DNA from: Pseudomonas sp. StFLB209
Lineage (GTDB): Bacteria; Pseudomonadota; Gammaproteobacteria; Pseudomonadales; Pseudomonadaceae
Reading direction: 5' to 3'
DNA length: 64,000 bases
Assembly (NCBI RefSeq): GCF_000829415.1
Contig: NZ_AP014637.1
Span: forward strand, 1,810,001 to 1,874,000
Part shown: piece after piece, positions 38,557 to 64,000 of the stretch
Numbering within the stretch: position 1 is the stretch's first letter
How the letters are laid out: each line of letters begins with the position of its first letter
Notes under the pieces: model-generated
Told to the model about the DNA's origin: nothing
Databases searched by the model: none
The model's input: the letters and a program-made list of their open reading frames with translations, nothing else
Position numbers and translations under genes: made by a program

Positions 38557-38572
38557 TGTTTCACGTGGAACA
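38557..38572. promoter_or_regulatory. parS-like site 1
   Basis: TGTTTCACGTGGAACA differs from a perfect TGTTCCACGTGGAACA palindrome by one base. It lies between the receptor remnant and the ethylene-receptor-like kinase gene, about 10.5 kb left of oriC. ParB would load here. Confidence 0.8.
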
Positions 38573-42448: not shown

Positions 42449-45974
<3,526 letters not shown>

Positions 45975-47135: not shown

Positions 47136-48686
47136 TCATGTGGTCAATGTACGCAGCAGGTTCTTGTAGTCCTCGCGGATATCCGCGTCGGATTCCTTGA
47201 GTTCGTTGATCTTGCGGCAGGCGTGCAACACCGTGGTGTGGTCACGTCCGCCAAATACGTCGCCAATCTCGGGCAGGCTGTGGTTGGTCAGCTCTTTGGA
47301 AAGCGCCATGGCCACCTGCCGTGGTCGGGCCACCGAGCGCGAACGACGCTTGGACAACAGATCAGAGATCTTGATCTTGTAGTACTCGGCGACAGTGCGC
47401 TGGATGTTATCCACACTGACCAGTTTGTCTTGCAGCGCCAGCAGGTCCTTCAGCGACTCGCGGATCAGCTCGATGGTGATGTCGCGGCCCATGAAGTGCG
47501 AGTGCGCAATAACGCGCTTGAGCGCGCCTTCGAGTTCCCGAACGTTGGAACGAATGCGCTGGGCAATGAAGAACGCAGCATCATGCGGCAGGTCGACCTT
47601 GGCCTGATCGGCCTTCTTCATCAGGATCGCCACCCGGGTTTCCAGTTCCGGCGGCTCGACCGCGACGGTCAGACCCCAGCCGAAACGGGACTTGAGCCGC
47701 TCTTCCAGCCCTTCAATTTCCTTGGGGTAACGGTCGCTGGTGAGAATCACCTGCTGCCCACCCTCAAGCAATGCGTTGAAGGTGTGGAAAAACTCTTCCT
47801 GGGAACGCTCCTTGCGGGCGAAGAACTGAATATCGTCGATCAGCAATGCGTCGACCGAGCGATAGAAACGCTTGAACTCGTTGATTGCATTGAGCTGCAG
47901 CGCCTTGACCATGTCGGCCACGAAACGCTCCGAATGCAGGTACACAACCTTGGCATTGGGATTCTTTTTCAGCAGGTGGTTGCCCACCGCATGCATCAAG
48001 TGAGTCTTACCCAGGCCGACCCCACCATAAAGGAACAGCGGGTTATAGCCGTGCTTGGGATTATCGGCGACTTGCCAGGCAGCAGCGCGCGCCAGCTGGT
48101 TCGACTTGCCTTCAACGAAGTTCTCGAAGGTGAAGGTGCGGTTCAGGTAGCTGGTGTGCTTGAGCGCGCCTTCGACCTGCACGGTGCGCTGTTCAGTGCG
48201 TACCGGAGCCTGTGGCGGGTTGGCGCCGGCCAGCGGATCGAAACTGTCACGCGACGGTTCATCAAGACCATCGAGTGGCGGGGCCTGCACAGGTGCGGGC
48301 GCTGCCACAGGTGCCGGGGCTTGTACCGACGCAGATCCTGAATGGCCCGCCGTGTCGACGCTCGCCTGGGCGTTGTGCGAAGCAGCGGCAGCAGCAGCCG
48401 CTGCCAAAGGCGCGTTGGGTGCCGCACGGGGCGCCGAACTGCGCTTGCTGCCTATTAATAAGGAAAGCGCAGGCGCCATGCCTTGACCACGCTCGCCGAG
48501 AAGCTCGAGCAGACGCCCCAGGTACTTTTCGTTGACCCAGTCAAGTACGAAGCGATTTGGTGCATAGACACGCAGCTCGTCGCCTTCGGCTTCGACCTGT
48601 AGTGGACGGATCCAGGTATTGAATTGCTGGGCAGGCAGCTCATCGCGCAAAAGCTCCACGCACTGCTGCCAAAGTTCCACTGACAC
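47136..48686 (-). CDS. dnaA: Chromosomal replication initiator protein DnaA
   Basis: Binds DnaA boxes and opens oriC. It has 516 residues. Domain I ([18 protein letters not shown]) is followed by a long Ala/Pro-rich domain II linker (residues 85-175, with an eight-Ala run). The AAA+ domain has Walker [11 protein letters not shown] and Walker [10 protein letters not shown], and domain IV carries the DNA-binding signature [16 protein letters not shown] start at GTG 48686, the usual Pseudomonas start, after AGGGGATATCC. It contains an exact DnaA box (47407-47415). The boxes upstream in oriC allow autoregulation. Confidence 0.98.
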
Positions 48687-49269
48687 GGATATCCCCTGAG
48701 TTGAAAGCCGCTGAGGCAAAAACAGCCGCCATTGTAACGATCAGCCGCTGACTTATCCACATGTAGGTGGCTGCCGCTTCGTAAGAAATGATCATCGGAG
48801 CCATACATCAGCCGACGACCGGTGCCGGCTAAGCTCTGTGGATAACTGCCATTCAGCTCTTTGCATAACTCAGGGTCGAGCCCTGTGTATAACCTGGCTG
48901 TGCATAAAAAGCGCTTTCACACACAGCTTATGCGCACTCGCAGCACAGTCACAGCACCGTTTCTCGACAGACTTATGAATCGCTGTACATCATGACTTAC
49001 GTGGCCTGTAATGAGTTATCCACAAACAAGGCGTTGACTAAGCTTAACAAGCTTTGCAAAAAAGCTTTATATAGGTCCTCTTTTATTTCTATAGCTGAGT
49101 GGTTCACCAAAGCGATCAGAATGATCCTGGTCATGGCTAATAAAGGAAAATGACCAGATAGAAGGAAAAGCTGGTTGGAAATTGACCTGCACGCCGGCTT
49201 TCACTAGAATCGCCGGTCTCTAAAAACGGGGCCATTCCGGCCTTCAGTGCACAAACCAGGTAACACGCC
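48687..49269. other. oriC: Chromosomal replication origin oriC (dnaA-rpmH intergenic region)
   Basis: A 583-bp region with exact DnaA boxes at 48753-48761 (TTATCCACA), 48837-48845 (TGTGGATAA) and 49017-49025 (TTATCCACA). Variants lie at 48884-48892 (TGTGTATAA) and 48899-48907 (TGTGCATAA), and possibly 48862-48868. An AT-rich stretch (49040-49130, with TTTATATAGG and TTTTATTTCTATAG) is a candidate unwinding element. The place between divergent dnaA and rpmH matches the known Pseudomonas origin. Confidence 0.93.
49182..49210 (+). promoter_or_regulatory. Sigma-70-type promoter of rpmH
   Basis: TTGACC (49182-49187) and TAGAAT (49205-49210) are separated by exactly 17 bp, 60 bp before the rpmH start. 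This is a close match to the -35/-10 consensus. Confidence 0.8.
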
Positions 49270-49404
49270 ATGAAACGTACTTTCCAACCCAGCACTATCA
49301 AGCGCGCCCGCACCCACGGTTTCCGCGCCCGTATGGCCACCAAGAACGGCCGTGCAGTCCTGTCGCGTCGTCGCGCCAAAGGCCGTAAGCGTCTGGCTAT
49401 CTGA
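49270..49404 (+). CDS. rpmH: 50S ribosomal protein L34
   Basis: A 44-residue, very basic ribosomal protein. It reads [20 protein letters not shown] and ends [12 protein letters not shown], the canonical L34 sequence. It begins the rpmH-rnpA-yidD-yidC-mnmE direction away from oriC and is preceded by a good promoter (49182-49210). rnpA follows after 14 bp. Confidence 0.98.
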
Positions 49405-49418
49405 TTTCCGCGGCACAG

Positions 49419-49823
49419 GTGGTGAGTCAGGACTTCAGTCGGGAAAAGCGTCTGCTTACACCCCGGCATTTCAAGGCAGTCTTTGACTCCCCAACCGCCA
49501 AGGTTCCGGGGAAAAATCTCCTGATCCTTGCACGCGACAACGATCTGGATCATCCCCGTCTAGGGCTTGTGATCGGAAAGAAGAGCGTCAAGCTCTCAGT
49601 ACAGCGCAACCGTTTGAAGCGCCTGATTCGCGACTCATTTCGCCTGCACCAACACAATCTGGTGGGTTGGGATATCGTGATCGTCGCGCGTAAAGGCATG
49701 GGTGACCTGGATAACCCTGAATTGATCCAGCATTTCGGCAAACTCTGGAAACGTCTGGCCCGTAGCCGGCCTGTTGCACCAGTCCAAACCGAACCTGCAA
49801 GGGTAGACAGTCCAGATGCGTAA
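49419..49823 (+). CDS. rnpA: Ribonuclease P protein component
   Basis: Protein subunit of RNase P, which matures tRNA 5' ends with the catalytic RNA. It has 134 residues. The RNA-binding signature [13 protein letters not shown] is near residue 66. Two consecutive GTGs (49419, 49422) are possible starts; I keep the first. It overlaps yidD by 8 bp. The arrangement with rpmH is conserved. Confidence 0.95.
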
Positions 49824-50061
49824 GCTGGCACTCGTACCGATCCAGTTTTACCGCTATGCCATCAGTCCTTTGATGGCCAGTCACTGTCGTTTCTTCCCCA
49901 GTTGCTCCTGCTACGCCTACGAAGCCATTGATAATCATGGTCTTGTGCGCGGTGGATGGCTGACCCTGAAACGTCTTGGTCGCTGTCATCCGTGGAACCC
50001 CGGTGGTTATGACCCGGTTCCACCAGTTTCCAACCCCCGTTCTTCTTCGATGGCCGAGTAA
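49816..50061 (+). CDS. yidD: Membrane protein insertion efficiency factor YidD
   Basis: An 81-residue protein thought to help YidC insert membrane proteins. The family core [20 protein letters not shown] and [20 protein letters not shown] is intact, including the conserved cysteines. It is located between rnpA (8-bp overlap) and yidC (2 bp apart), the normal operon place. Confidence 0.96.
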
Positions 50062-50063
50062 TC

Positions 50064-51740
50064 ATGGATATTAAACGCACGATCCTGATCGGCGCCCTGG
50101 CAATCGTGACCTACGTCGGCGTTCTGAAATGGAACGAAGACTACGGCCAGGCTGCCCTGCCGAACCAGACTGTTGCTGCCAGCACCAATAGTGCAGCCGA
50201 TGTACCTGCGGCCAGCAATGCGCCCGCGAACACCGACGTTCCTACCGCTCCAGGCAGTGCTCCGGCACCTGTCGAAACACCGGCGGTGGTCAGCAAGGAT
50301 CTGATTCAGATCAAGACCGATGTGCTCGAAGTGGCCATCGACCCGGTCGGGGGTGATGTCGTCCAGTTGCGGCTGCCGCTGTACCCACGCCGTCAGGACC
50401 GCCCGGATGTTCCTTTCCAGCTGTTCGACAATGGCAATGAGCGGGTTTTCCTCGCGCAAAGCGGTCTGACCGGCACCAATGGTCCGGATGCACGCTCCAT
50501 TGGTCGTCCTGTTTACACTTCGACACAGAAAAGTTATCAACTGGCTGATGGCCAGAAAGAACTGGTCGTCGAGCTGAAGTTCTCCGACAACGGCGTCAAC
50601 TACACCAAGCGCTTCACCTTCGAGCGCGGCATGTACGACCTCAACGTCAACTACGTTGTGGATAACCAGAGCGCCCAGGCGTGGACCGGTAACCTCTACG
50701 GCCAGCTCAAGCGTGACGCCAGCTCCGATCCATCGTCGACCACTGCCACCGGCACTGCCACTTATCTGGGGGCGGCCCTGTGGACCCCATCGGAACCTTA
50801 CAAAAAGGTCTCGATGAAGGACATCGACAAAGGCCAGGTGCGTGAAAACGTACAGGGCGGCTGGGTTGCCTGGCTGCAGCATTACTTCGTGACGGCCTGG
50901 ATTCCAGACCATAACGCCAACAATGCCATGCAGACCCGCAAGGACAGCCAGGGTAACTACATCATTGGTTTCACCAGCCCGGCGCTCAACGTAGCACCTG
51001 GCACCCAGGGTGAAACCGGCGCGACGCTGTATGCCGGTCCGAAAAGCCAGGCGGTGCTCAAAGAGTTGTCCCCAGGCCTGGAGTTGACTGTCGACTACGG
51101 CTTCCTGTGGTTCATTGCCCAGCCGATCTTCTGGTTGCTGCAACATATCCACAGCCTGCTGGGTAACTGGGGCTGGTCGATCATCGTCCTGACCATGATC
51201 ATCAAGGGCTTCTTCTTCCCGCTGTCGGCCGCCAGCTACAAATCCATGGCCCGCATGCGCGCCGTGGCACCGAAGCTGACCGCGCTGAAAGAGCAATACG
51301 GTGACGATCGCCAGAAGATGTCCCAGGCGATGATGGAGCTGTACAAGAAAGAGAAGATCAACCCGCTGGGTGGATGCTTGCCGATTCTTGTCCAGATGCC
51401 GGTATTCCTGGCCCTGTACTGGGTTCTGCTGGAAAGCGTCGAGATGCGCCAGGCGCCATGGATCCTCTGGATCACTGACCTGTCGATCAAAGACCCGTTC
51501 TTCATCCTGCCGATCATCATGGGCGCGACCATGTTTATCCAGCAGCGTCTGAACCCGACGCCTCCGGATCCGATGCAGGCCAAGGTGATGAAAATGATGC
51601 CAATCATCTTCACCTTCTTCTTCCTGTGGTTCCCGGCTGGTCTGGTTCTGTACTGGGTTGTGAACAACACCCTGTCGATCATGCAGCAGGCTTACATCAC
51701 GCGTAAGATCGAGGCCGCTACCAAGAAGGCCGCCGCTTGA
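50064..51740 (+). CDS. yidC: Membrane protein insertase YidC
   Basis: Inner-membrane insertase that works alone or with Sec. It has 558 residues. An N-terminal membrane anchor (ILIGALAIVTYVGVL) precedes a large periplasmic domain (about residues 30-350) and five further conserved hydrophobic segments, including WGWSIIVLTMIIKGFFFPLS. The linker after residue 25 is Ala/Pro/Thr-rich. A terminator at 51767-51788 follows. A DnaA box (50657-50665) lies in the coding sequence. Confidence 0.98.
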   Translation: MDIKRTILIGALAIVTYVGVLKWNEDYGQAALPNQTVAASTNSAADVPAASNAPANTDVPTAPGSAPAPVETPAVVSKDLIQIKTDVLEVAIDPVGGDVVQLRLPLYPRRQDRPDVPFQLFDNGNERVFLAQSGLTGTNGPDARSIGRPVYTSTQKSYQLADGQKELVVELKFSDNGVNYTKRFTFERGMYDLNVNYVVDNQSAQAWTGNLYGQLKRDASSDPSSTTATGTATYLGAALWTPSEPYKKVSMKDIDKGQVRENVQGGWVAWLQHYFVTAWIPDHNANNAMQTRKDSQGNYIIGFTSPALNVAPGTQGETGATLYAGPKSQAVLKELSPGLELTVDYGFLWFIAQPIFWLLQHIHSLLGNWGWSIIVLTMIIKGFFFPLSAASYKSMARMRAVAPKLTALKEQYGDDRQKMSQAMMELYKKEKINPLGGCLPILVQMPVFLALYWVLLESVEMRQAPWILWITDLSIKDPFFILPIIMGATMFIQQRLNPTPPDPMQAKVMKMMPIIFTFFFLWFPAGLVLYWVVNNTLSIMQQAYITRKIEAATKKAAA

Positions 51741-51766
51741 TCTAACCTGTGATCGTGTTTGACAAG

Positions 51767-51788
51767 ACGCCCCCTCGTGGGGCGTTTT
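51767..51788 (+). terminator. Intrinsic terminator downstream of yidC
   Basis: ACGCCCC and GGGGCGT form a 7-bp stem with a CTCGT loop followed by TTTT, 26 bp past the yidC stop and before mnmE. Confidence 0.82.
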
Positions 51789-51816
51789 GCTATCTGTCAG
51801 TTTTTCAGGAGTCCGC

Positions 51817-53187
51817 ATGAACGCCCCCCGTGAAACCATCGCTGCTATCGCCACCGCGCAAGGACGGGGAGGCGTCGGCATTGTGCGGATTTCCGGCCCG
51901 TTGGCGGCCAAGGCCGCGCAAGCCATCACCGGCCGCGAACTCAAACCGCGCTACGCCCACTACGGGCCTTTTGCCGATGAACAAGGCCAGGTGCTCGACG
52001 AGGGCATCGCCCTGTACTTCCCGGGGCCCAACTCGTTCACCGGCGAAGATGTTCTGGAACTTCAAGGGCATGGCGGCCCGGTGGTGCTGGATATGCTGCT
52101 GCAACGCTGCGTGCAACTGGGCTGCCGTCTGGCCCGCCCCGGTGAATTCAGCGAGCGGGCTTTTCTCAATGACAAACTCGACCTGGCCCAGGCCGAGGCG
52201 ATCGCTGACCTGATCGAAGCCAGCTCGACCCAGGCGGCACGCAACGCATTGCGCTCACTGCAAGGCGCCTTTTCCCAACGTGTGGATAACCTGACTGAGT
52301 TGCTGATTGGCCTGCGTATGTACGTCGAGGCCGCGATCGACTTCCCGGAAGAGGAAATCGACTTCTTGGCTGACGGCGTGGTGCTGGGCAAGCTTGATGC
52401 AGTACTTGCGATGTTATCCACAGTCCTGCATGAGGCCGGGCAGGGCGCCTTGCTGCGTGACGGCATGACCGTGGTCATCGCCGGTCGCCCCAACGCCGGC
52501 AAGTCCAGCCTGCTCAACGCATTGGCCGGTCGAGAAGCGGCCATCGTCACCGACATCGCCGGCACCACCCGCGATGTGCTGCGTGAACATATCCACATCG
52601 ACGGCATGCCGCTGCACGTGGTCGACACCGCCGGGTTGCGCGATACCGAGGATCAGGTCGAACTGATTGGCGTCCAGCGCGCCCTCAAGGCCATTGGTGA
52701 AGCGGATCGCATCCTGCTGGTCGTCGATGCCACGGCGCCGGAAGCCACCGATCCGTTTTCTCTGTGGCCGGAGTTTCTAGAACAGCGCCCAGATCCGGCC
52801 AAGGTCACCCTGATTCGCAACAAGGCCGATCTCAGTGGCGACCTGATCGGCCTGCAAACCAGTGACGACGGGCATGTCACTATCAGCCTGAGCGCCAAAT
52901 CGGCCGGCGAAGGCCTGGATCTGCTGCGCGAACACCTCAAGGCCTGCATGGGTTATCAACAGACCTCAGAAAGCAGCTTCAGCGCCCGCCGCCGCCACAT
53001 TGATGCATTGAATCGCGCCAGTCGCCTGCTCGAACACGGCCACGCACAGCTGACCCTGGCCGGTGCCGGCGAACTGCTCGCAGAGGACCTGCGCCAGGCT
53101 CAGCAGGCACTCGGCGAGATCACCGGCGCGTTCAGTCCGGATGAATTGCTGGGCAGGATCTTTTCCAGTTTCTGTATTGGTAAGTGA
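51817..53187 (+). CDS. mnmE: tRNA modification GTPase MnmE
   Basis: With MnmG it forms the 5-carboxymethylaminomethyl group on uridine 34 of certain tRNAs. It has 456 residues. The N-terminal folate-binding domain begins [20 protein letters not shown]. The GTPase G1 is [14 protein letters not shown] near residue 224, and the C-terminus is CIGK, with the essential cysteine. I start at ATG 51817 after CAGGAGTCCGC. Its partner mnmG is 7.5 kb away, separated by an accessory block. Two exact DnaA boxes lie inside (52281-52289, 52414-52422). Confidence 0.98.
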
Positions 53188-53202
53188 GTAGAGAGCCGGC
53201 CA

Positions 53203-54639
53203 ATGAACGAAGCCCAATTACTGTCACGACTGGCCTGTGGTGAAGACAGCCGCCATCAGTTCAAGCGCGACGCGAGCAACGTAGACAGTATGGCCGCTGA
53301 GCTGGCAGCGTTCGCCAACAGTGGCGGTGGCACGTTGTTCATGGGCGTCAATGATGATGGCTCACTGGCCGGCCTGGATGGTTCAGCGGTGCGCCGCTTG
53401 AATCAGTTGCTGGGCAACGCCGCTTCTCAGCACGTGCGCCCACCGATCCATCCTTTGACCGAGAACGTTCTGACGGCCCAGGGCTTGGTAATTGTGGTGA
53501 CGGTGCCCGATGGCCTTGCCAAACCTTATGTGGATAACCAGGGGCGCATCTGGGTCAAGCAGGGTTCGGACAAACGCCATGTAACGGCACGAGAAGAAAT
53601 GCAGCGCATGTTCCAGCGCGCCGGGTTGGTGTATGCCGATGTAGTGCCTGTAACGAACACATCCGCTGTAGATATTGATGAAAAGGCCTTTCAGGCCTAT
53701 TTCAATCGGCGTTATGGCCAGCAACAAGAGTGGATTGGCCTGCCGCTGGAGCAGTTGCTGCAGAATATCGGGCTCGGCGATGGCCAAGAGTTGAATCTCG
53801 CCGGGCTGATGCTGTTCGGGCGTTATCCACAACGTTGGCGCCCTGCGTTCGGCATCAAGGCCGTAGCCTTTCCAGGCACCCAACTGGCCGACACACGGTA
53901 TCTGGACAGCGAAGATATTGGCGGCACGCTCGCCGAACAGTTCCGGGACTGCTTTGCATTCATCCGCCGCAACCTGCACCACGTACAACGCGGCCGTGGC
54001 TTCAATACCCTAGGTGAACTGGAGATTCCTGAAGCTGCTCTGGAAGAACTGTTGGTCAACGCCTTGATCCATCGTGATTACTTCACCAGTGCCTCGATCC
54101 GGCTGATGATCTTCACTGATCGCATCGAGATCGCCAGCCCTGGGCATTTACCCGACAGCCTCGACGTCACAGCCATCCTTCAGGGGCGGACCAATCGTCG
54201 TAATCCAACCCTGACAGAACATGCAGCGCATCTGCTGCCTTATCGCGGCATGGGCAGCGGCATTGCACGAGCACTGCAACAATGGCCGCGCATCGACTTG
54301 CTCGACGACCCGCGCGGCAATCAGTTCAGTGCCGTTATCTGGCGTCCTGAAGCCGAGTGGCAAGGGGCTACCCCCCAAGTCACCCCCCAAGTCACCCCCC
54401 AAGTCACCCCCCAAGTCACGGACGAAGTTCAACGTCTGCTCGGTGTGCTTCAAGGTGAACTGACCCGCGCTGAAATTCAGACAGCTCTGGGCCTGAAAGA
54501 CAGAAAGCATGTGCACAACGCCTATCTGCGTCCGGCACTGGAGGCGGGTCTGGTGGCCATGACCTTACCAAACAAGCCGCTCAGCAGACTGCAACGCTAC
54601 TACCTGACCGAGTTGGGCAAGAGCGCGCTACAGCGTTAA
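53203..54639 (+). CDS. AlbA_2 / HATPase_c_4 predicted regulator (COG2865-like)
   Basis: A 478-residue protein with three parts: an N-terminal AlbA_2 (Schlafen-like) domain (EDSRHQFKRDASNVDSMAAE, ANSGGGTLFMGVNDDG; residues 10-125), a HATPase_c_4 region (EELLVNALIHRDYFTSASI, YRGMGSGIARAL; about 270-370), and a C-terminal winged helix (about 405-478). Between the last two is a fourfold TPQV repeat. It begins 15 bp after mnmE, so it may be read through from the mnmE transcript. Such proteins are poorly characterised; DNA or RNA binding and regulation are proposed for the family. Two exact DnaA boxes lie inside. Confidence 0.85.
   Translation: MNEAQLLSRLACGEDSRHQFKRDASNVDSMAAELAAFANSGGGTLFMGVNDDGSLAGLDGSAVRRLNQLLGNAASQHVRPPIHPLTENVLTAQGLVIVVTVPDGLAKPYVDNQGRIWVKQGSDKRHVTAREEMQRMFQRAGLVYADVVPVTNTSAVDIDEKAFQAYFNRRYGQQQEWIGLPLEQLLQNIGLGDGQELNLAGLMLFGRYPQRWRPAFGIKAVAFPGTQLADTRYLDSEDIGGTLAEQFRDCFAFIRRNLHHVQRGRGFNTLGELEIPEAALEELLVNALIHRDYFTSASIRLMIFTDRIEIASPGHLPDSLDVTAILQGRTNRRNPTLTEHAAHLLPYRGMGSGIARALQQWPRIDLLDDPRGNQFSAVIWRPEAEWQGATPQVTPQVTPQVTPQVTDEVQRLLGVLQGELTRAEIQTALGLKDRKHVHNAYLRPALEAGLVAMTLPNKPLSRLQRYYLTELGKSALQR
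54370..54417 (+). repeat. Four perfect 12-bp tandem repeats inside the AlbA_2 gene
   Basis: The unit ACCCCCCAAGTC occurs four times without a mismatch and encodes TPQV each time. Each unit holds a six-C run, so slippage could change unit number in frame or shift the frame. Confidence 0.95.
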
Positions 54640-54702
54640 GAAGTTATCCACAAGTCATGTCAAACACCGGCTTATGGGAATGGATTTTATCCTCGCTGTG
54701 GC

Positions 54703-54750
54703 TATTCGCGGCTGAAGCCGCTCCTACGGTGGGGGCTGCAGCCGCGAGCT
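54703..54750. repeat. REP-type palindrome pair
   Basis: GCTATTCGCGGCTGAAGCCG / CTCCTAC followed by GGGGGCTGCAGCCGCGAGC lies between the AlbA_2 gene and the convergent hydrolase gene. Confidence 0.7.
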
Positions 54751-54774
54751 TTCTCGTACCCTACAAACACCCGC

Positions 54775-55407
54775 TCATTGCTGACGCATCAGCCGCTCAA
54801 GCTCATTGAGCAATGCCGGAAACTCACTGTAGCCATCGTCCTTGAGAAAATGCCCACCTTCCGGCAGAAGAACAAACTGCGCGTCAAGCTGCCGGGCCAG
54901 TCGCTGGCTGAAGGGCGCGGGCACCACGACATCGTTCGCGGCTGCGATCACCATCCGCGTGTGGGTAACTCTGATGATCTTCGCGTAGTCCAGATCTGGA
55001 CGCAGGAACGGGTCCAGTTCGGGGATATTCGACAAATGTTCATTGAAGCCAGAGACCAGCACGATGCCGCCAATTGTGGATAAGTCCTGGCGGTCAGCCA
55101 GATAGCGCAGCACCGCGATACTTCCCAGGCTATGGGTCACGAACCAGGTATTGCGGTCGGCGTGGATAACTTGCTGTTGCAGGGTCTGCTGCCATTGGTC
55201 GGGCCGGGGAGCAGCGGAGTTCGGCATATCGAGCACCGACACCTTCACGCCCTGACTTTGCAAACGCTGCTTGAGCCAGGCAAACCAATGGCTGTCAGGC
55301 GATGCGCCATAGCCGTGGACGATGTAGACCTGCTTGTCTTGCGTCGGGGTCTCGGCAAAAACCGGCATGGCCAGCAACAAAGCCAACAAGGCAGTAATGA
55401 TCCGCAT
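54775..55407 (-). CDS. Exported RBBP9/YdeN-like alpha/beta hydrolase
   Basis: A 210-residue alpha/beta hydrolase with a signal peptide (MRIITALLALLLAMPVFA). The family start YIVHGYGASPDSHWFAWLK is followed by the nucleophile elbow THSLGS and, at the end, ANDVVVP and EGGHFLKDDG with the Asp and His of the triad. The substrate is unknown. I choose ATG 55407, with GAGGT eight bases upstream; a GTG three codons earlier is possible. DnaA boxes lie inside (55075-55083) and just upstream (55421-55429). Confidence 0.85.
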   Translation of the reverse strand: MRIITALLALLLAMPVFAETPTQDKQVYIVHGYGASPDSHWFAWLKQRLQSQGVKVSVLDMPNSAAPRPDQWQQTLQQQVIHADRNTWFVTHSLGSIAVLRYLADRQDLSTIGGIVLVSGFNEHLSNIPELDPFLRPDLDYAKIIRVTHTRMVIAAANDVVVPAPFSQRLARQLDAQFVLLPEGGHFLKDDGYSEFPALLNELERLMRQQ

Positions 55408-55533
55408 GATTGGCACCTCGTGTGGATAACTTGAATGCTATTGACCACCGAGATTGAAAAATCGCCAATTGCAGAAAAATATCGCTACATTCCTGATCTT
55501 TAAGGACCATAGATCCTGAATCGAGGATGCTGA

Positions 55534-56094
55534 ATGAACAGCCTGAACGGCTTTGGCGTGTTTGTGCAGGTGGCCGAAACCCGCAGTTTCGTCGCTGCGG
55601 GCCGTGTGCTGGGTTTTCCGCTTCTGCGGTGGGCAAGAGTGTGGCCCGGCTTGTGGAAAAACTCGGCGTACGGCTGTTTCATCGCAGTACCCGCGGTATT
55701 GCCCTGAACGCAGAAGGGGCGATGCTGCTGGAGCTAAGCCAGACGACTGCATAGCCTCAAGGCCGCCTGCGAATCAGCCTGCCGATGCTGGGAACGAGGT
55801 TCTTATCCACATTGAGCGATTTCGTGGCCTGTTATCCACAGATCGAACTGGATCTGGATTTCAGCGACCGGATCGTCGATGTCATTGAAGAAGGCTGTGA
55901 TGCGGTGATCCGTACCGGTACGCCTGCAGGATTTTGCCGTGCAACAACCATTGGCCGACGGTCGGCTGTGCAGGGTGCCGCCCGATTACCTGCAGCAGAC
56001 CCGCACCTTTCATATCCTGTGGCCGGCCAGCCGGCATTTGTCCCCTAAGGTGGGTGCCCTGGTGGACTTTCTTTGCGCCCGGCTGGCGGCCTGA
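55534..56094 (+). pseudogene. LysR-family regulator, decayed
   Basis: The HTH starts at ATG 55534 (MNSLNGFGVFVQVAETRSFV), shifts frame near 55620 (SASAVGKSVARLVEKLGVRL, then STRGIALNAEG), and continues after a stop region as effector-domain pieces in other frames (GRLRISLPMLGTRFLSTLSDF, DGRLCRVPPDYLQQ, and the final VGALVDFLCARLAA ending at 56094). At about 187 codons against about 300 for a LysR protein, it also has an internal deletion. It no longer encodes a regulator. It may once have controlled the divergent hydrolase gene. Confidence 0.85.
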
Positions 56095-56107
56095 CAGTTA
56101 TCCACAG

Positions 56108-58555
56108 TTACCAGTTATAAGACACCGTACCGAGCAATGTGCGGCTGTCGCCCCAGTAGCAACGACCCGCATCGTTACAGCCCGAGACGTACTCTTTGTC
56201 GAACAGGTTGCGGGCATTCAGATCCAGCGACCAATGGCGGTCGATCTGGTAGCCGATGGCGGCATCGACCAGGGTGACTTCACCGGCGTTCAGGCGGCCA
56301 TACAGTGCGGGCTGGGTATAAGCGAAGGTGCTGTCAAAGTAGCGCACGCCACCACCCACCGACACACCGCGCAATGAGCCTTCGAGAAAGCGGTATTTGG
56401 CCCACGCCGAGGCCTGGTTACGAGGTACACCGGTCATCTGATGGCCTTCGATCAACGAACCTGGCGCGTCTTTGGTGACGCGCGCATCGGTGTAGGTGTA
56501 CGAGGCGGTGAGATTCAGGTTGCGGCTGATATCACTGTTGATTTCCAGCTCCACGCCTTTGGAGCGGCTTTCGCCCACCTGCCGGTAAGTCGAGGTGCTT
56601 GCATCCAGGCAAGTATCGTCTTCTTTGCGCAGGTCGAACACCGATGCGGTCATGGCCGTGTTCCAGCCAACCGGCTCGTACTTTATCCCCAGCTCGACTT
56701 GGGAACTGGTGATCGGGTCCAGCGGTGCACCGCCATTGGAGATTTGCTGAACCGGCACGAACGCTGTGGAATAACTCGCATAAGGGGTCAGACCGTTGTC
56801 GAAACGGTACATCAGCCCGCCCTGCCAGGTGAACTTGCGGTCATCGCCGTTGACCCCGCCAGCCGGAGCCAGTTTGTTGCGAAAGTCGCTTTCAACCCAG
56901 TCCTGACGGCCGCCCAGCAGAAAGATCCAGTTGTCCCAGGTACTCTGCAGCTGGGTGTAAACGCCCTGCATCTGCTGGGTGAGCAGGGTGTTCTGCACGG
57001 CTATGGAGGTTACCGGGTCACGGGCGTAGACCGGGTTGAAGATATTGATCTGCCCGGCGGCACCGGCATTCCAGTCCTGATTGAACGAGGTCCGATCGTA
57101 GCTGGCGCCGACCAGCAGCGTATGGTCCACGGGACCGGTGCTGAATTTGCCCTCAAGCTGGTTATCCAGCGAGTAGACCATGGACTTGTTGAAGCGCTCG
57201 TAGGCGGTAACGTTGAGCTGGGTGCCGTAGCCGCCGTTGTTCAGGCTGCCTGGCCAGGTTTCATGACGCGTGATGCGCGACTGCAGGTAGCGTGAATTCT
57301 GGCGGAACTGCCAGTCATCGTTGAAGCTGTGGATAAATTCGTAACCCAGACTCCAGGTTTCCCGCTCGAAGGTGTTCCAGCCTGGTACGCCCAGCATGGT
57401 GTCCTTGTCGAGCTTGCCGTTGGGGTTGCGCAGCAGGGTGCCAGCCGCCGGCAGCCCCAACTCCATGTTGGTATGGTCCTTCTGATAGTGGCTGAGCAGC
57501 GTCAGATGCGTCGCGTCGTCAATATTCAGGGTCAGGGAGGGGGCGATGTAGATACGATCATCCGGCACATGGTCGGTCTGGGTATCAGCCTTGCGCCCCA
57601 GCATCACCACGCGGCCCTGCACATTGCCGGCCTCGTTCAACGGCCCGGAGATATCCACAGCCAACTGGCGGCGGTTGTTGGAGCCGTAGCTGAGCTGTAC
57701 TTCACCCTGTGGGGTGGCGGTCGGGCGTTTGCTGACCAGGTTGACCAGCCCGCCGGGGGCGTTTTCGCCATACAGGATCGAGGATGGCCCGCGGAAGATT
57801 TCCACACGCTCCAGCCCATAGGTATCGGTGGTGGTGTCATAACGATTGCCCTGCACCCGCAAGCCATCGCGTAACAGCCCATAGCCGTAGTCGGTGGCAT
57901 TGAAGCCACGAATGAAGAACAGATCACCGGCCAGGCTGTCGCCGGCGGCGAAGGGCGGGGCGAAAATGCCTGGCACATAGCCCAGTACTTCCGTGAGGGT
58001 CTGGGCTTTCTGGTCTTTGATGCGTTGCTGGGTGACCACCGACACCGAGCGCGGCGTTTCGCTCAACGGCGTACTGGTCTTGGTCCCGGCGCGACTGTTC
58101 TGTGCCTTGTAGCCGGTATCGCTGGCGCTGTCCTGTGCATAACTGCTCAGCCCGGTGCCATGCACGTCAGTGTCGGCCAACACCACAGAGCCACCGGTCG
58201 GGATGGCTTGCAGCACATAGCTGCCCGGCGCCTGAGCAACGGCCTGCAAGCCGGTACCTTGCAGCAACAGGGCAAACCCTTGCTCGATCGAATACTGACC
58301 TTGCAGTCCCTGGGTACGGCGGTTACCGGTTTGTGTCGGCGAGAACGACAGAATCACATTGGCCTGGGAGGCAAACTGGCTCAGCGCGTTATCCACAGGC
58401 CCGGCGGCCACTGCAAAGCGTTGTACGGTGCTTTCGGCCATGGCCTGACTGGCGAGCAGTGGATAAACAAACGTACCGCCCAGCAGCAGGCTGTAGGTGA
58501 AGCAGTGGCGACCCAAGTACTGACGACCATAAAACGGTATCGAAGCGAAGCGCAT
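56108..58555 (-). CDS. TonB-dependent siderophore receptor with STN transducer domain
   Basis: An 815-residue outer-membrane receptor. A long signal peptide (to about residue 40) is followed by the STN signalling domain (VDNALSQFASQANVIL ... LLLQGTGLQAV, residues 52-115), the plug (LSETPRSVSVVTQQRIKDQ ... GLERVEIFRGPSSILYGENA), and the beta-barrel ending in the aromatic GTVSYNW. It belongs to the FecA/FpvA transducer type, which signals to FecR. The ferric ligand is not predictable. It lies 96 bp after fecR on the same strand. It starts with ATG 58555. Confidence 0.95.
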   Translation of the reverse strand: MRFASIPFYGRQYLGRHCFTYSLLLGGTFVYPLLASQAMAESTVQRFAVAAGPVDNALSQFASQANVILSFSPTQTGNRRTQGLQGQYSIEQGFALLLQGTGLQAVAQAPGSYVLQAIPTGGSVVLADTDVHGTGLSSYAQDSASDTGYKAQNSRAGTKTSTPLSETPRSVSVVTQQRIKDQKAQTLTEVLGYVPGIFAPPFAAGDSLAGDLFFIRGFNATDYGYGLLRDGLRVQGNRYDTTTDTYGLERVEIFRGPSSILYGENAPGGLVNLVSKRPTATPQGEVQLSYGSNNRRQLAVDISGPLNEAGNVQGRVVMLGRKADTQTDHVPDDRIYIAPSLTLNIDDATHLTLLSHYQKDHTNMELGLPAAGTLLRNPNGKLDKDTMLGVPGWNTFERETWSLGYEFIHSFNDDWQFRQNSRYLQSRITRHETWPGSLNNGGYGTQLNVTAYERFNKSMVYSLDNQLEGKFSTGPVDHTLLVGASYDRTSFNQDWNAGAAGQINIFNPVYARDPVTSIAVQNTLLTQQMQGVYTQLQSTWDNWIFLLGGRQDWVESDFRNKLAPAGGVNGDDRKFTWQGGLMYRFDNGLTPYASYSTAFVPVQQISNGGAPLDPITSSQVELGIKYEPVGWNTAMTASVFDLRKEDDTCLDASTSTYRQVGESRSKGVELEINSDISRNLNLTASYTYTDARVTKDAPGSLIEGHQMTGVPRNQASAWAKYRFLEGSLRGVSVGGGVRYFDSTFAYTQPALYGRLNAGEVTLVDAAIGYQIDRHWSLDLNARNLFDKEYVSGCNDAGRCYWGDSRTLLGTVSYNW

Positions 58556-58651
58556 GCGTATGACCCTGAGAGTGACGATAGTCCGCGGTGACCGCGATTA
58601 ATGGAAGGGCCGGGCCAGAATCGAAAAAGATCACCTGCTGCAGAAATTTTT

Positions 58652-59590
58652 TCAGGTGGTGTGGCGCACCGTGATCAAGTAGCGGGTGAAGTAGCGCACT
58701 TCTATAGGCAAAGTCGCTTGCAGATTGGCCAGCACGGCATCAATGGCATCCAGACGCAGGGTGCCGGAAACCCTCAGCAGCGCCGCACGCTCGTCGCAGC
58801 GCAGCAGGCCTTGGCGATAACGTCCAAGCTCGGCCAGCACATCGCCCAAGCGGGCGTTGAGCACCACCAGTTGTTTATCGACCCAGGCCACATCCGAGGC
58901 GCGGTAGATATCCACAGCACGGCAGGCATGGCGGTCAAAGTCAGTGCTTTCACCAGCCTTGAGCATCAGCGGTTTATCCACAGTGGCATCAGGATGAATG
59001 CTGACCTGATCCTGCAGAACACCAACATGGGTCAACCCTGACAGCTGACGTACGGTAAACCGGGTCCCCAAGGCCTGCACATGGCCCTGGGCAGTGCGTA
59101 CCCGCAGCGGTCGCGGATCGCCACGTTTGCTGGTCTGCAGCAGAATTTCGCCGCTGCGCAGATGAATCAAACGTTGCTGTTGATCGAAATACACGTCGAT
59201 GGCGGTATCGGTATTGAGATAGATCTGACTGCCATCGGCCAGTTCGATACGTCGCTGCTCACCCGTTGCAGTACGGTAATCGGCCCAATAGTCCAGATGC
59301 TGACGGGTATTCCAGCCCAGATAACCGGTGGCCGAGGCCAGCAGTACCAGCTTCAACACCTGACGGCGCTGACGGGTTGTGGATAACGCCCGACGGGTCA
59401 TGTCACCGGGGATAACCCCCAGGCTGTGCTGCAATTGTTCGATCTGATTCCAGGCCATCCGATGGGCAGGATCACTGGCCAGCCAGCACTGCCAGGCCAG
59501 GGTCTGCTCTGCCGTGGCCGGTTGCGACTGGAACTGCACATACCAGGTCGCCGCTGCTTCCAGAGTCTTGCGATCCATGCCCTTGGCCAT
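58652..59590 (-). CDS. FecR-like anti-sigma / sigma regulator
   Basis: A 312-residue inner-membrane regulator that transmits the receptor signal to the FecI sigma factor. The N-terminal cytosolic DUF4880 part (AAATWYVQFQSQPATAEQTL, AWNQIEQLQ) precedes one membrane segment (LKLVLLASATGYLGW, about residues 79-93). The periplasmic FecR domain (LADGSQIYLNTDTAIDVYF ... VQALGTRFTVRQLSG) follows, ending in an STN-binding-like tail. The ATG at 59590 overlaps the FecI stop (TGATG). Here the full domain set is present, unlike the copy at 36249. Confidence 0.93.
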   Translation of the reverse strand: MAKGMDRKTLEAAATWYVQFQSQPATAEQTLAWQCWLASDPAHRMAWNQIEQLQHSLGVIPGDMTRRALSTTRQRRQVLKLVLLASATGYLGWNTRQHLDYWADYRTATGEQRRIELADGSQIYLNTDTAIDVYFDQQQRLIHLRSGEILLQTSKRGDPRPLRVRTAQGHVQALGTRFTVRQLSGLTHVGVLQDQVSIHPDATVDKPLMLKAGESTDFDRHACRAVDIYRASDVAWVDKQLVVLNARLGDVLAELGRYRQGLLRCDERAALLRVSGTLRLDAIDAVLANLQATLPIEVRYFTRYLITVRHTT

Positions 59591-60096
59591 CACAGCTCAG
59601 CCATGACCAGCGAACACTCGGTAAGCGCCCGGACCATGTGTTTCTTGATCGAGGTCAGCGACAATCCCAACTGATCGGCGGCTTGTTGATAAGTCAGCCC
59701 GTCGACCTGGGTCAGCATGAAAATCTTCTGGGTCCGAGCGCCCAGGCTGGCCAGCGCCTTATCCACTGCCATCAGTGTTTCGATAATCAACGCTTTCTCT
59801 TCTTCGCTGACCACCAGCACCTCAGGCATTGCCGCCATGCTGTCCAGCCACGCCTGTTCAATGGCCCGACGCCGGTAGCGGTCGATCACCAGGCCTCTGG
59901 CAATCGTCGCCAGATAGTCACGAGACTCACGAATCTGCCCCGCATTGCGTGCAGCCAAGACCCGCACAAAAGTGTCATGGGCCAGGTCGGCGGCATCGCT
60001 GGTGCTGGAAAGCCTGCCTTTGAGCCAGCCATACAGCCACGAGTGATGCTGTTCGTAGATCAATCGGACGGCAGCCATGTGGATGGAAGAGGACAT
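59590..60096 (-). CDS. FecI-like ECF sigma factor
   Basis: A 168-residue ECF sigma factor of the iron-starvation group. Region 2 (YEQHHSWLYGWLKGRLSSTS, DAADLAHDTFVRVLAARN, YLATIARGLVIDRYRRR) and region 4 (LTYQQAADQLGLSLTSIKKH) are intact. It would direct RNA polymerase to the receptor promoter when FecR signals. A Fur-box-like site (60117-60135) lies about 20 bp upstream, so iron repression is likely. The fecI-fecR-receptor order matches the classical module. Confidence 0.95.
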   Translation of the reverse strand: MSSSIHMAAVRLIYEQHHSWLYGWLKGRLSSTSDAADLAHDTFVRVLAARNAGQIRESRDYLATIARGLVIDRYRRRAIEQAWLDSMAAMPEVLVVSEEEKALIIETLMAVDKALASLGARTQKIFMLTQVDGLTYQQAADQLGLSLTSIKKHMVRALTECSLVMAEL

Positions 60097-60116
60097 AAGC
60101 GGGCATCAGCAAGAGG

Positions 60117-60135
60117 GTTAATGATAATGGCTATT
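60117..60135. promoter_or_regulatory. Fur-box-like site upstream of fecI
   Basis: GTTAATGATAATGGCTATT plus flanking bases matches the 19-bp Fur consensus GATAATGATAATCATTATC at 14 positions by eye. It lies about 20 bp upstream of the fecI-like start. Confidence 0.7.
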
Positions 60136-60650
60136 ATTAGCCTCTGAAGGGCAGTGGAACAATAGCCGATAATGCAGGTTTATCCCCAATGCGCTTATGC
60201 ACAGCCACCCAATGGCCCACTCCGTCCTGCCCGTGAGAAAAACTCAATCTGTTATCCAGAGGCCAAAATAAGCCCTGTGAATAAGTCGGCCTTAGCCCGG
60301 TTGATAAGCCTGCTCGAAACCTGAAGAAAACTGCCCCTGTGGAAAAGAAGCACTTTAATCCACAGGATCAAACAGGTTATCCAAGCCCCTCAAGGCCACA
60401 TGGTCACAGACTTCAAAACCTCTGTACAGTACGGATTACAATGCCTACAGAGCTTTATCCACAGAAATGGCGGTGCATAACATAAGCATTAAAAACAAGG
60501 TTTTATAAACTTTCTTTCTTTTTATTTTTTTAATCTCATGTCTCGTCAGCACAGCTGGTCATTTTTTGGTCACCGGGTTTCATAGAAGGGCGGGAAGTCT
60601 CTATACTTGTCAGTTCCCTATTTCTCATCACAACAGGCACGAGGTGCGTG
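60136..60650. other. AT-rich, DnaA-box-containing region upstream of mnmG (possible second origin-like element)
   Basis: No gene is visible. An exact DnaA box is at 60455-60463. Near-matches include TTATCCCCA (about 60181), TTATGCACA (about 60196), TTATCCAGA (about 60252) and TTATCCAAG (about 60377). An A/T-rich tract (about 60490-60540, with TTTCTTTCTTTTTATTTTTT) follows. This resembles the gidA/mnmG-side origin-like sequence described for Pseudomonas. A possible -10 element TATACT (60602-60607) precedes mnmG. Confidence 0.65.
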
Positions 60651-62543
60651 GTGGATTTCCCTTCCCGTTTTGAAGTGATCGTCATCGGTGGCGGTCATGC
60701 CGGTACCGAAGCGGCACTGGCTGCGGCACGCATGGGCGTCAAGACCCTCCTGTTGACGCACAACGTCGACACCCTTGGTCATATGAGCTGTAACCCCGCC
60801 ATTGGCGGTATAGGTAAAAGCCATCTGGTTAAGGAAATCGATGCACTCGGCGGTGCGATGGCAACGGCCACCGACCTGGCCGGTATTCAGTTTCGTGTGC
60901 TTAACAGCCGCAAAGGCCCGGCCGTACGTGCCACAAGGGCTCAGGCTGACCGCGCCTTGTACAAGGCAGTGATCCGCGAAACCCTCGAAAATCAGCCCAA
61001 TCTGTGGGTATTCCAGCAATCGGCGGATGACCTGATTGTTGAACAGGATCAGGTGCGCGGCGTTGTCACTCAGATGGGGCTGCGGTTCATGGCCGACTCT
61101 GTCGTGTTGACCACCGGGACCTTCCTGAGCGGCCTGATCCACATTGGCATGCAGAATTATTCCGGCGGCCGGGCAGGTGATCCGCCGTCGATTGCCCTGG
61201 CTCACCGCCTGCGTGAATTGCCGTTGCGCGTTGGTCGCCTGAAAACCGGTACGCCGCCACGAATCGATGGCCGTTCGGTCGATTTCTCGGTAATGAGCGA
61301 GCAACCGGGCGATACGCCGATCCCGGTGATGTCGTTTCTTGGCAACAAGGAGCAGCATCCACGTCAGGTCAGTTGCTGGATTACCCACACCAACGCCCGG
61401 ACCCACGAGATCATTGCCGCCAACCTGGATCGCTCGCCGATGTATTCGGGCATGATCGAAGGGATCGGTCCGCGCTACTGCCCATCGATCGAAGACAAGA
61501 TTCACCGGTTCGCCGACAAGGACAGCCATCAGGTGTTCATCGAGCCCGAAGGACTGACCACCCATGAGCTGTATCCGAACGGTATTTCCACTTCGCTGCC
61601 GTTCGATGTGCAGTTGCAGGTGGTGCGCTCGATTCGTGGCATGGAAAACGCACACATCGTGCGTCCTGGCTATGCCATCGAATACGACTACTTCGATCCG
61701 CGCGACCTGAAATACAGCCTGGAAACCAAAGTCATCGGCGGGTTGTTCTTCGCCGGGCAGATCAACGGCACCACCGGTTACGAAGAGGCCGGTGCGCAAG
61801 GGCTGCTTGCCGGAACCAACGCCGCATTGCGCGCCCAGGGCAAACCAAGCTGGTGCCCGCGCCGCGATGAAGCGTACATCGGTGTACTGGTCGATGACCT
61901 GATTACCCTAGGAACCCAGGAACCGTACCGGATGTTCACCTCCCGGGCCGAGTACCGCCTGATTCTGCGCGAAGACAACGCCGATCTGCGCCTGACCGAA
62001 AAAGGCCGTGAACTGGGCCTGATCGACGACAGCCGCTGGGCCGCCTTCTGCGCCAAGCGCGAAAGCATCGAACGCGAAGAGCAACGGCTGAAAACCACCT
62101 GGGTTCGTCCGGGCACCGAGCAAGGGGATGCCATTGCTGAACGATTCGGCACACCGTTGTCTCACGAATACAATCTGCTCAGCCTGCTGACCCGTCCGGA
62201 AATCGACTACGCCAGCCTGGTAGAACTGACCGGCGCCGGTTGTAACGATCCACAGGCTGCCGAACAGGTCGAGATCCAGACCAAGTACGCCGGTTATATC
62301 GAGCGTCAGCAGGAAGAAATCGCTCGTCTGCGGGCCAGCGAAGATACCCGTCTGCCGCACGACATTGACTATTCGAACATTTCCGGGCTGTCCAAAGAGA
62401 TTCAATCCAAGCTGGGGATAACTCGTCCCGAGACGCTTGGGCAGGCATCGCGTATTCCCGGCGTCACACCGGCGGCGATTTCGCTGTTGATGATTCACCT
62501 GAAAAAACGCGGTGCAGGCCGCGAGTTGGAGCAAAGCGCTTGA
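60651..62543 (+). CDS. mnmG: tRNA uridine-5-carboxymethylaminomethyl modification FAD enzyme MnmG
   Basis: FAD-dependent partner of MnmE in wobble uridine modification. It has 630 residues. The FAD loop [17 protein letters not shown] begins near residue 13, the family block [20 protein letters not shown] follows at about 45, and the signatures [17 protein letters not shown] and [13 protein letters not shown] [17 protein letters not shown] are intact. I choose GTG 60651 (reads [10 protein letters not shown] after the start), the usual length; a GTG at 60648 adds one residue. It overlaps rsmG by 4 bp (TTGA at 62540-62543). Confidence 0.97.
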
Positions 62544-63199
62544 GTGCCATGGTGACACCGCAACATGCCGAGGAATTATCCACAGGCGCCCGGCAATTGG
62601 GCATTGAGCTCAGTGAAACCCAGCACAGCCAGCTGCTGGCGTACCTGGCCCTGTTGATCAAATGGAACAAGGCCTACAATCTCACCGCGGTGCGCAACCC
62701 GGACGAGATGGTTTCCCGGCATCTACTCGACAGCCTCAGCGTACTGCCCTTTGTTGACTCAACGTCGATCAACGCCGAACGCTGGCTGGATGTGGGCAGC
62801 GGTGGTGGCATGCCCGGCATCCCGCTGGCGATCATGTTTCCCGATACCCGCGTTGCGCTGCTGGACAGCAATGGCAAGAAAAGCCGCTTCCAGACCCAGG
62901 TAAAACTTGAATTGAAACTGGATAACCTTGAGGTTATCCACAGCCGTGCCGAAAGCTATCAGCCTGCCGAGCCGTTCACCGGTATCATTTCCCGGGCGTT
63001 CAGCAGTCTTGAAGATTTCACCGGCTGGACCCGTCACATGGGTGACACGGATACACGCTGGCTGGCAATGAAAGGGCTGCATCCGACCGATGAGCTGGTA
63101 GCATTGCCAGCAGATTTTCGCCTCGATAGCGCACAGGCCCTGGCCGTTCCAGGTTGCCAAGGCCAACGCCATCTGCTGATACTGCGCCGCACGGCATGA
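62540..63199 (+). CDS. rsmG: 16S rRNA m7G527 methyltransferase
   Basis: Methylates G527 of 16S rRNA. It has 219 residues. The SAM-binding motif [15 protein letters not shown] begins near residue 85, preceded by [11 protein letters not shown]. The likely start is TTG 62540 ([14 protein letters not shown]), which overlaps the mnmG stop; an ATG at 62549 is an alternative. Two exact DnaA boxes lie inside (62576-62584, 62934-62942). parA follows after 18 bp. Confidence 0.96.
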
Positions 63200-63217
63200 T
63201 TGGGAACACAAGCAAGA

Positions 63218-64000
63218 ATGGCTAAGGTATTCGCGATTGCGAACCAGAAAGGTGGTGTGGGTAAAACCACCACCTGCATCAACCTCGCAGCGTCGCTGGT
63301 CGCCACCAAGCGTCGGGTGCTGTTGATCGACCTCGATCCACAGGGCAACGCCACCATGGGTAGCGGTGTGGATAAACACAACCTGGAAAACTCGGTGTAC
63401 GACCTGCTGATCGGTGAATGCGATCTGTCGGCGGCCATGCAGTTCTCCGAACACGGTGGTTATCAACTGCTGCCGGCCAACCGTGACCTGACGGCGGCCG
63501 AAGTGGTACTGCTGGAAATGCAGATGAAGGAGAGCCGTCTGCGCAATGCGCTGGCGCCGATCCGTGAAAGCTACGATTACATTCTCATCGACTGCCCGCC
63601 GTCGCTGTCGATGCTGACCCTCAATGCCCTGGTTGCAGCCGACGGGGTAATTATCCCCATGCAGTGCGAATACTTCGCGCTCGAAGGGTTGAGTGACCTT
63701 GTGGATAACATCAAGCGTATTGGTGAGCTGCTCAATCCGCAGCTGAAGATCGAGGGGTTGTTGCGCACCATGTATGACCCGCGCCTGAGCCTGAGCAACG
63801 ATGTTTCCGCACAGCTCAAGGAACACTTTGGCGATCAGCTCTACGACACGGTGATTCCACGCAACATCCGCCTGGCCGAGGCACCGAGTTTCGGCATGCC
63901 GGTGCTCACCTACGACAAGTCATCGCGTGGTGCCCTGGCTTACCTGGCCCTGGCCGGTGAACTGGTCCGTCGTCAACGTCGCAGTGCAAAAGCTGCCAAA
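63218..64000 (+). CDS. parA: Chromosome partitioning ATPase ParA (Soj), 3' end outside window
   Basis: Deviant-Walker ATPase that with ParB moves oriC-proximal parS regions. The window holds 261 codons. It begins MAKVFAIANQKGGVGKTTTC, with the Walker A of the ParA type (KGGVGKTT), then LLIDLDPQGNATMGSG and DYILIDCPPSLSML. The stop lies beyond 64000. It is in the mnmG-rsmG-parA direction, and parB should follow. Exact DnaA boxes lie at 63367-63375 and 63700-63708. Three parS-like sites at 38557, 44908 and 45538 are its presumed targets. Confidence 0.97.
   Translation, partial: MAKVFAIANQKGGVGKTTTCINLAASLVATKRRVLLIDLDPQGNATMGSGVDKHNLENSVYDLLIGECDLSAAMQFSEHGGYQLLPANRDLTAAEVVLLEMQMKESRLRNALAPIRESYDYILIDCPPSLSMLTLNALVAADGVIIPMQCEYFALEGLSDLVDNIKRIGELLNPQLKIEGLLRTMYDPRLSLSNDVSAQLKEHFGDQLYDTVIPRNIRLAEAPSFGMPVLTYDKSSRGALAYLALAGELVRRQRRSAKAAK

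Follow-up and report, generated by a model that had tools for sequence, protein, structure and literature searches.

Introduction

The initiator titration idea is decades old, and it has been hard to test because the DnaA boxes of Escherichia coli are sparse and scattered. Yee and Smith reportedly described TTATCCACA in 1990 as a high-affinity box in Pseudomonas putida, where the origin is said to adjoin dnaA. For E. coli and Salmonella, Olivi et al. (2025, PMC12371093) describe boxes that become denser toward oriC than permuted motifs do, and their main text reads this as favouring titration; the words 'Pseudomonas' and 'asymmetr' do not occur in that text. According to a review (PMC5295017) citing Okumura et al. 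2012, Bacillus subtilis carries DnaA-box clusters outside oriC, and removal of six leads to early initiation. The datA locus of E. coli is described there as 1 kb long, with five boxes, and IHF-dependent (PMC5295017). Five boxes are given for the P. aeruginosa origin, and the passages on it mention no array beyond the origin (PMC4285127). Among open-licence papers, no account was found of an array such as the following for Pseudomonas.

Box Inventory of the Origin Region

The genome of Pseudomonas sp. StFLB209 is a single contig of 6,332,373 bases, from which one stretch of 64 kb, the window, was analysed. Judged by MnmE, its closest named relatives belong to Pseudomonas, at no more than 90% identity. 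A box is defined as an exact TTATCCACA or TGTGGATAA on either strand. By exact word count, the window contains 28 boxes: 23 at 48753-63708 and five to the left. All 23 boxes reported in an earlier note are present, one of them at 49016 instead of 49017, and its five left boxes were recovered by the recount (23062, 23678, 34632, 35497 and 47407). The gene order is gyrB-recF-dnaN-dnaA (minus strand), the dnaA-rpmH gap, rnpA, yidC, mnmE, accessory genes, mnmG, rsmG, parA, parB and the atp genes. Of these, ParB, two of the ATP synthase subunits and the accessory genes have Pfam support; the remaining core genes are presumably those named here, as judged from sequence and gene order.

In the list below, boxes were located by word count, and fractions give their occurrence in 56 sequences (StFLB209 itself and 55 relatives), which are counts of sequences and not of independent events.

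47407..47415, plus strand, exact box inside dnaA, the sole box from the dnaA start to the far end of gyrB; in 43/56 sequences
48654..49269, dnaA-rpmH intergenic region, presumed oriC from sequence and gene order; three exact boxes and several near-boxes
48753..48761, plus strand, exact box, oriC
48837..48845, minus strand, exact box, oriC
49016..49024, plus strand, exact box, oriC
50657..50665, minus strand, exact box in yidC (GTG GAT AAC); in 7/56 sequences
52281..52289, minus strand, exact box in mnmE; in 9/56 sequences
52414..52422, plus strand, exact box in mnmE (TTA TCC ACA); in 37/56 sequences
53529..53537, minus strand, exact box in accessory AlbA_2 gene
53823..53831, plus strand, exact box in accessory AlbA_2 gene
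54644..54652, plus strand, exact box, intergenic
55075..55083, minus strand, exact box in serine-hydrolase gene (LST)
55421..55429, minus strand, exact box, intergenic
55803..55811, plus strand, exact box, intergenic
55832..55840, plus strand, exact box, intergenic
56098..56106, plus strand, exact box, intergenic
57328..57336, minus strand, exact box in TonB-dependent receptor gene
58389..58397, plus strand, exact box in TonB-dependent receptor gene
58974..58982, plus strand, exact box in fecR-like gene
59378..59386, minus strand, exact box in fecR-like gene (LST)
60455..60463, plus strand, exact box, intergenic, upstream of mnmG
62576..62584, plus strand, exact box in rsmG (LST); in 27/56 sequences
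62934..62942, plus strand, exact box in rsmG; in 47/56 sequences
63367..63375, minus strand, exact box in parA; in 42/56 sequences
63700..63708, minus strand, exact box in parA; in 41/56 sequences

The boxes had been described as lying mostly inside genes. With 14 of the 23 in coding DNA (12 from yidC to rsmG and two in parA) and nine in non-coding DNA, including the three in the dnaA-rpmH gap, this holds as a modest majority only. Read in frame, the coding boxes give VDN five times, LST four times, VDK and IHS twice each and YPQ once. Only the three boxes at 48753-49024 form an intergenic cluster beside dnaA, as is expected of oriC. The GC-skew minimum of the window is found at 54862; the signal is very shallow, so that oriC is not sharply placed by it. 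Over the 15 kb of the array, the mean spacing of the boxes is 679 bp with a coefficient of variation of 0.83, which rules out a regular arrangement. One-mismatch boxes are likewise concentrated on the array side, with 26 in 15.1 kb versus three in the 42.4 kb to the left.

Excess over the Genome and over Control Words

The whole genome (6.33 Mb) contains 109 exact boxes, compared to 19 copies of the reversed word. From the rate in the rest of the genome, 0.20 boxes would be predicted per 15 kb, and 23 were found; the Poisson probability of about 4e-39 is a yardstick only, as the boxes are not independent. Among the 100 listed places of the 109, the next densest 15 kb contains six boxes. The density claimed in the earlier note is therefore peculiar to this region at the level of those places. 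The left 48.7 kb, with five boxes, one of them within dnaA, also exceeds the genome mean, far less than the right side does. TTATCCACA tops the 9-mer count in the part of the window right of oriC, and it does so in 27 pooled loci as well. For every 2-kb bin between 0 and 12 kb on the right, the count over 23 genomes is above that of all 300 permuted words; this does not hold for the 14-16 kb bin, with four boxes against a permuted-word maximum of eight. Thus, consensus boxes are in excess near oriC over both the genome and the permuted-word controls, as would be expected of a titration region. Synonymous shuffling of eleven genes, dnaA included, predicts 0.59 boxes where 13 are observed. The strand bias is weak (120 boxes on the plus and 89 on the minus strand on the right side, 40 and 56 on the left).

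One-Sidedness of the Array and Position of parS

Not counting the oriC gap, the first 10 kb on either side of the dnaA start have more boxes on the right than on the left in 23/23 genomes (151 vs. 35 boxes). Within 20 kb, this is the case for 20 of the 23 genomes, with two left-rich and one tie (209 vs. 96). None of the 23 genomes has an exact box between -6 and -2 kb; farther left than -6 kb, the same set shows 0.17-0.39 boxes per kb. These left boxes make the asymmetry graded, not absolute. The one-sidedness put forward earlier is thus a real excess on the right and not an exclusive one, as dnaA itself is boxed in 43/56 sequences and two of the 23 genomes are left-rich at 20 kb. Active depletion of boxes near parS is unsupported, since the zone is at background (one box seen, 1.5 expected).

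Up to 20 kb from the dnaA start, the 23 genomes have 50 parS-like sites (at most two mismatches), all of them on the left and none on the right. Farther than 20 kb to the right, two parS-like sites with two mismatches were identified, in G017 and G012. In P. aeruginosa, as far as described in PMC3909081, the closest parS lies in recF, and parAB is across oriC from it. The parS scan of the window gave three sites, all on the side opposite the array:

38557..38572, no strand assigned, parS-like site, one mismatch
44908..44923, no strand assigned, parS consensus match in recF
45538..45553, no strand assigned, parS-like site in recF, one mismatch

After the array, 8.7 kb are devoid of exact boxes (window 63709-64000 and L081 1-8371, with parB and the atp genes), and boxes resume at glmU/glmS-like genes. 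Highly expressed genes may exclude boxes.

Conservation in Relatives

Of the 55 relatives, 33 were taken from 80 named loci for their likeness to Pseudomonas (L001-L033); the other 22 come from 58 genus genomes and were selected to have usable contigs and to cover both high and low box totals. L024 is titled Paucimonas, and the later loci among L001-L033 are more distant; L013 and G044 are identical, leaving 54 distinct relatives. In L034-L080, boxes were counted, and the codon tests were confined to the other sequences.

An exact box is present in 36 of the 55 relatives at mnmE codon 199, in 46 at rsmG codon 127, in 26 at rsmG codon 8, in 41 at parA codon 56, in 40 at parA codon 167 and in 42 at dnaA codon 413. 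Those of yidC 198 (six relatives) and mnmE 154 (eight) are rarer. Of 1384 same-residue cells at boxes, 1125 have the identical codon; 782 would be predicted from how that codon is kept at other places in nine genes. AGC is the single codon kept less at boxes than elsewhere. The box positions are thus conserved in relatives, in favour of the earlier note. By synonymous shuffling of the 56 sequences, yidC, mnmE, mnmG, rsmG and parA together carry 292 boxes versus 10.1 expected (sequences at 14 distinct sites, not events), and gyrB, recF and dnaN carry one versus 1.5 expected. Same-frame 9-mer windows of similar residue conservation match or beat the box in 7/97, 13/166, 3/52 and 6/246 cases for the first four of eight boxes, and in 3/9, 1/24, 14/136 and 0/37 for the other four, so that support at single sites varies from clear to weak. 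Taken together, these comparisons of sequences indicate that the array boxes are kept by selection on the DNA, beyond codon choice and protein constraint. Such selection beyond coding constraint is a trait of a titration region, and it was found here for the boxes jointly, single sites again ranging from clear to weak.

At its box, mnmG reads CTT-ATC-CAC in 54/55 relatives, with CTC in the remaining one. StFLB209 has CTG at this position, one synonymous base short of a box; hence, this strain has most likely lost its mnmG box.

Accessory Genes between mnmE and mnmG

The mnmE-mnmG interval ranges from 0.39 to 8.9 kb in the 56 sequences (55 distinct). All 16 intervals longer than 2 kb contain at least two boxes, and several short ones are without any. 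In StFLB209, 13 boxes are present in 7.5 kb. A homologue of the AlbA_2 gene was detected in 10 of 297 other genus genomes, three on the mnmE contig at a large distance and seven on another contig; these ten loci away from mnmE are all free of boxes (0 in 41 kb). The AlbA_2/Fic-like C gene of the window (53203-54639) encodes short TPQV protein repeats ahead of its C-terminal domain.

For the TonB-receptor gene at the origin, nine boxes were counted in six of 30 copies, drawn from 40 with at least 75% identity, and five of the nine are in StFLB209 and its nearest match, G180. Of 19 homologues that do not adjoin mnmE, none has a box; five share the mnmE contig, at distances of 67 kb to 3.35 Mb, and 14 are on a different one. 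The two sets are different subfamilies (76-100% vs. 63-69% identity), which makes this a modest comparison. Chromosome position appears to act on arriving genes: accessory genes are boxed here, and the homologues examined elsewhere are unboxed.

Boxes along the Chromosome and in Other Genomes

In the full lists, the ori half and the ter half contain 72 and 12 boxes in G020 (84 boxes) and 73 and seven in G003 (80 boxes). For StFLB209, 99 of 100 listed places, out of 109 in total, are in the ori half. The nine unlisted boxes are two at 2671871 and 2699143, a pair at 3.76 Mb and five others; the last 3.35 Mb has at most seven boxes, which is about background. Exact boxes occur in 59/59 genomes of the genus, with 80-165 boxes in 49 of them. 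The low totals of the g1 genomes G028 and G054 (16 boxes each, vs. seven and nine for the reversed word) are near background, and yet five boxes are found in the first 20 kb on the right-hand side of the dnaA start. In the family, totals are high in g1, in g9 (64-122) and in g12 (97-172), and low in g10 (27-36), whose control is lower still; most other genera are closer to the control.

Several further box arrangements were observed. At a site remote from oriC, two exact boxes in inverted orientation, separated by 5 bases, occur in 3/3 genomes examined (L203 1501, corresponding to G000:C1:3760946-3760968; L204 3661; L205 3359), with a DUF1232 gene downstream by Pfam in L203 and L205; the pair is possibly a DnaA-controlled promoter. 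Secondary compact clusters of five, five and four boxes (L082 6537-9180; L083 7057-9344; L084 5443-7180) lie roughly -667, +498 and +812 kb away from oriC; they overlap or adjoin a Na/Ca exchanger gene, ETF genes and the gene of an epimerase, respectively. They are candidate datA or DARS equivalents. In G167 (L206 3182-12010, on G167:C1), a giant gene encoding LapA-type adhesin repeats carries fifteen exact boxes at a constant spacing of 630 bases, which inflates the total of this genome; the same spacing is seen among the listed places of G187. A box near the mnmE 3' end (about 11027-11095) recurs in L050, L054-L058, L064, L068, L072 and L080, ten more distant loci, mostly Halomonas relatives, with otherwise few boxes.

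Discussion

The array is probably a reservoir of consensus DnaA sites next to the origin, kept up by selection from oriC to parA, that titrates DnaA against re-initiation. What is observed is the excess of boxes, their place, their conservation beyond codon choice, the boxes in accessory genes and the gradient, together with a search for SeqA that gave no match. From this, we infer that the array would bind and titrate DnaA and affect timing. The 15-kb reservoir would sit on top of the wider ori-to-ter gradient. Sites flanking oriC would be copied very soon after initiation, and the number of sites per origin would therefore double at once; the doubled sites would bind DnaA, cut free DnaA and block re-initiation, until newly made DnaA refills them and sets the next initiation. 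Such titration would matter more where SeqA sequestration is missing. No match to SeqA was found in the StFLB209 genome, with the E. coli positive control detected. Hda is present, so that RIDA may suffice, which counts against a need for titration.

The titration or extended-origin-domain role suggested in the earlier note fits the comparative evidence, and its likening to datA is the weaker part, given mostly single boxes over 15 kb as opposed to five in 1 kb. In the E. coli data of PMC11317965, just 13 of 32 exact single boxes are seen bound, and DnaA favours paired boxes 2-3 bp apart. A partner box matching at least six of nine positions accompanies 8 of 209 array boxes (3.8%), compared to 3.4% of 9200 random points; at five of nine, the values are 21% and 13%. 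Double boxes of the E. coli type (partner 2-3 bp off) are thus not present beyond chance at six of nine, and the array boxes are mostly single. A weak sink made of many single sites could still titrate DnaA.

Titration alone makes no prediction of one-sidedness. An alternative is an organising or segregating role for the array, with a DnaA-coated arm on one side of oriC and a ParB-coated arm on the other, which would give sister origins their orientation or link initiation with ParA. The left-only position of the 50 parS-like sites, the stop of the array inside parA with the next box 8.7 kb on and the presence of parS at about -3.1 and -3.7 kb in the box-free zone from -6 to -2 kb all suit such a role. 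Nevertheless, we find it unlikely: the left zone is at background and not under it (one seen, 1.5 expected), the wide ori-ter gradient on both arms is left unexplained, and parS position and gene order may be merely ancestral. A little less probable still is a switch element in which the sites, beyond holding DnaA, alter its nucleotide state in the manner of datA or DARS. The boxes are consensus ones, two of them (55803 and 55832) are 29 bp apart and compact clusters exist elsewhere in the genome; however, the array boxes are dispersed (mean 679 bp, CV 0.83), in both orientations and mostly single.

Local control of the box-holding genes by DnaA, a known transcription factor, would agree with the 9/23 boxes that are non-coding. 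Such control is very improbable with fourteen boxes intragenic and in both orientations, and with the tested accessory genes boxed at the origin and unboxed elsewhere. There is next to no likelihood that chance, base composition or codon bias produced the array. GTG of the VDN-type boxes is a common Val codon, but four boxes read TTA-TCC-ACA, built on codons that are rare in 14 genes (TTA makes up 2.4% of the codons for Leu, and ACA 7.2% of those for Thr), and the reversed word, the synonymous shuffles and the 300 permuted words are all far lower in 0-12 kb. Taking the region together, these controls reject chance and codon bias; an individual site could be due to chance. Going beyond the titrating reservoir, a two-armed Pseudomonas origin is conceivable, if rather doubtful. 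A ParB centromere would face a selected DnaA-binding arm written into synonymous sites of core genes, genes that settle there would be re-coded with boxes, and the arm would take over from SeqA-type sequestration the main task of preventing re-initiation.

Some 20 consensus sites lie in one block outside oriC, and the genic ones are removable synonymously, with the proteins untouched. A single recoded strain of a laboratory Pseudomonas could test the titration model. It would also show that the place of a gene on the chromosome exerts selection on its codons, even in genes that arrived recently.

Comparison with Known Systems

With the oriC of Pseudomonas, the locus shares the word TTATCCACA and the origin beside dnaA. 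Like E. coli and Salmonella, it shows origin-proximal enrichment of boxes; there, as presented in the main text of PMC12371093, the enrichment spans several centisomes and concerns a loose motif set. Within 25 kb of oriC, E. coli K-12 has two exact boxes, both in or within a few bases of oriC, and 10 matches to the looser TTWTNCACA, compared to the 23 exact boxes in 15 kb of StFLB209. The likeness to datA is weak. In both cases, DnaA sites are outside the origin, lowering DnaA activity in E. coli and putatively here, but datA has about five boxes in about 1 kb; in StFLB209, leaving oriC aside, 20 boxes are scattered over 13 kb (679 bp apart on average in the 15 kb of the array). B. subtilis has six clusters, as the review describes them (PMC5295017), and Pseudomonas has one continuous gene-embedded array. 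Origin-proximal enrichment in E. coli and Salmonella and box clusters in B. subtilis are thus already known; the dense, gene-embedded form in Pseudomonas appears to be new.
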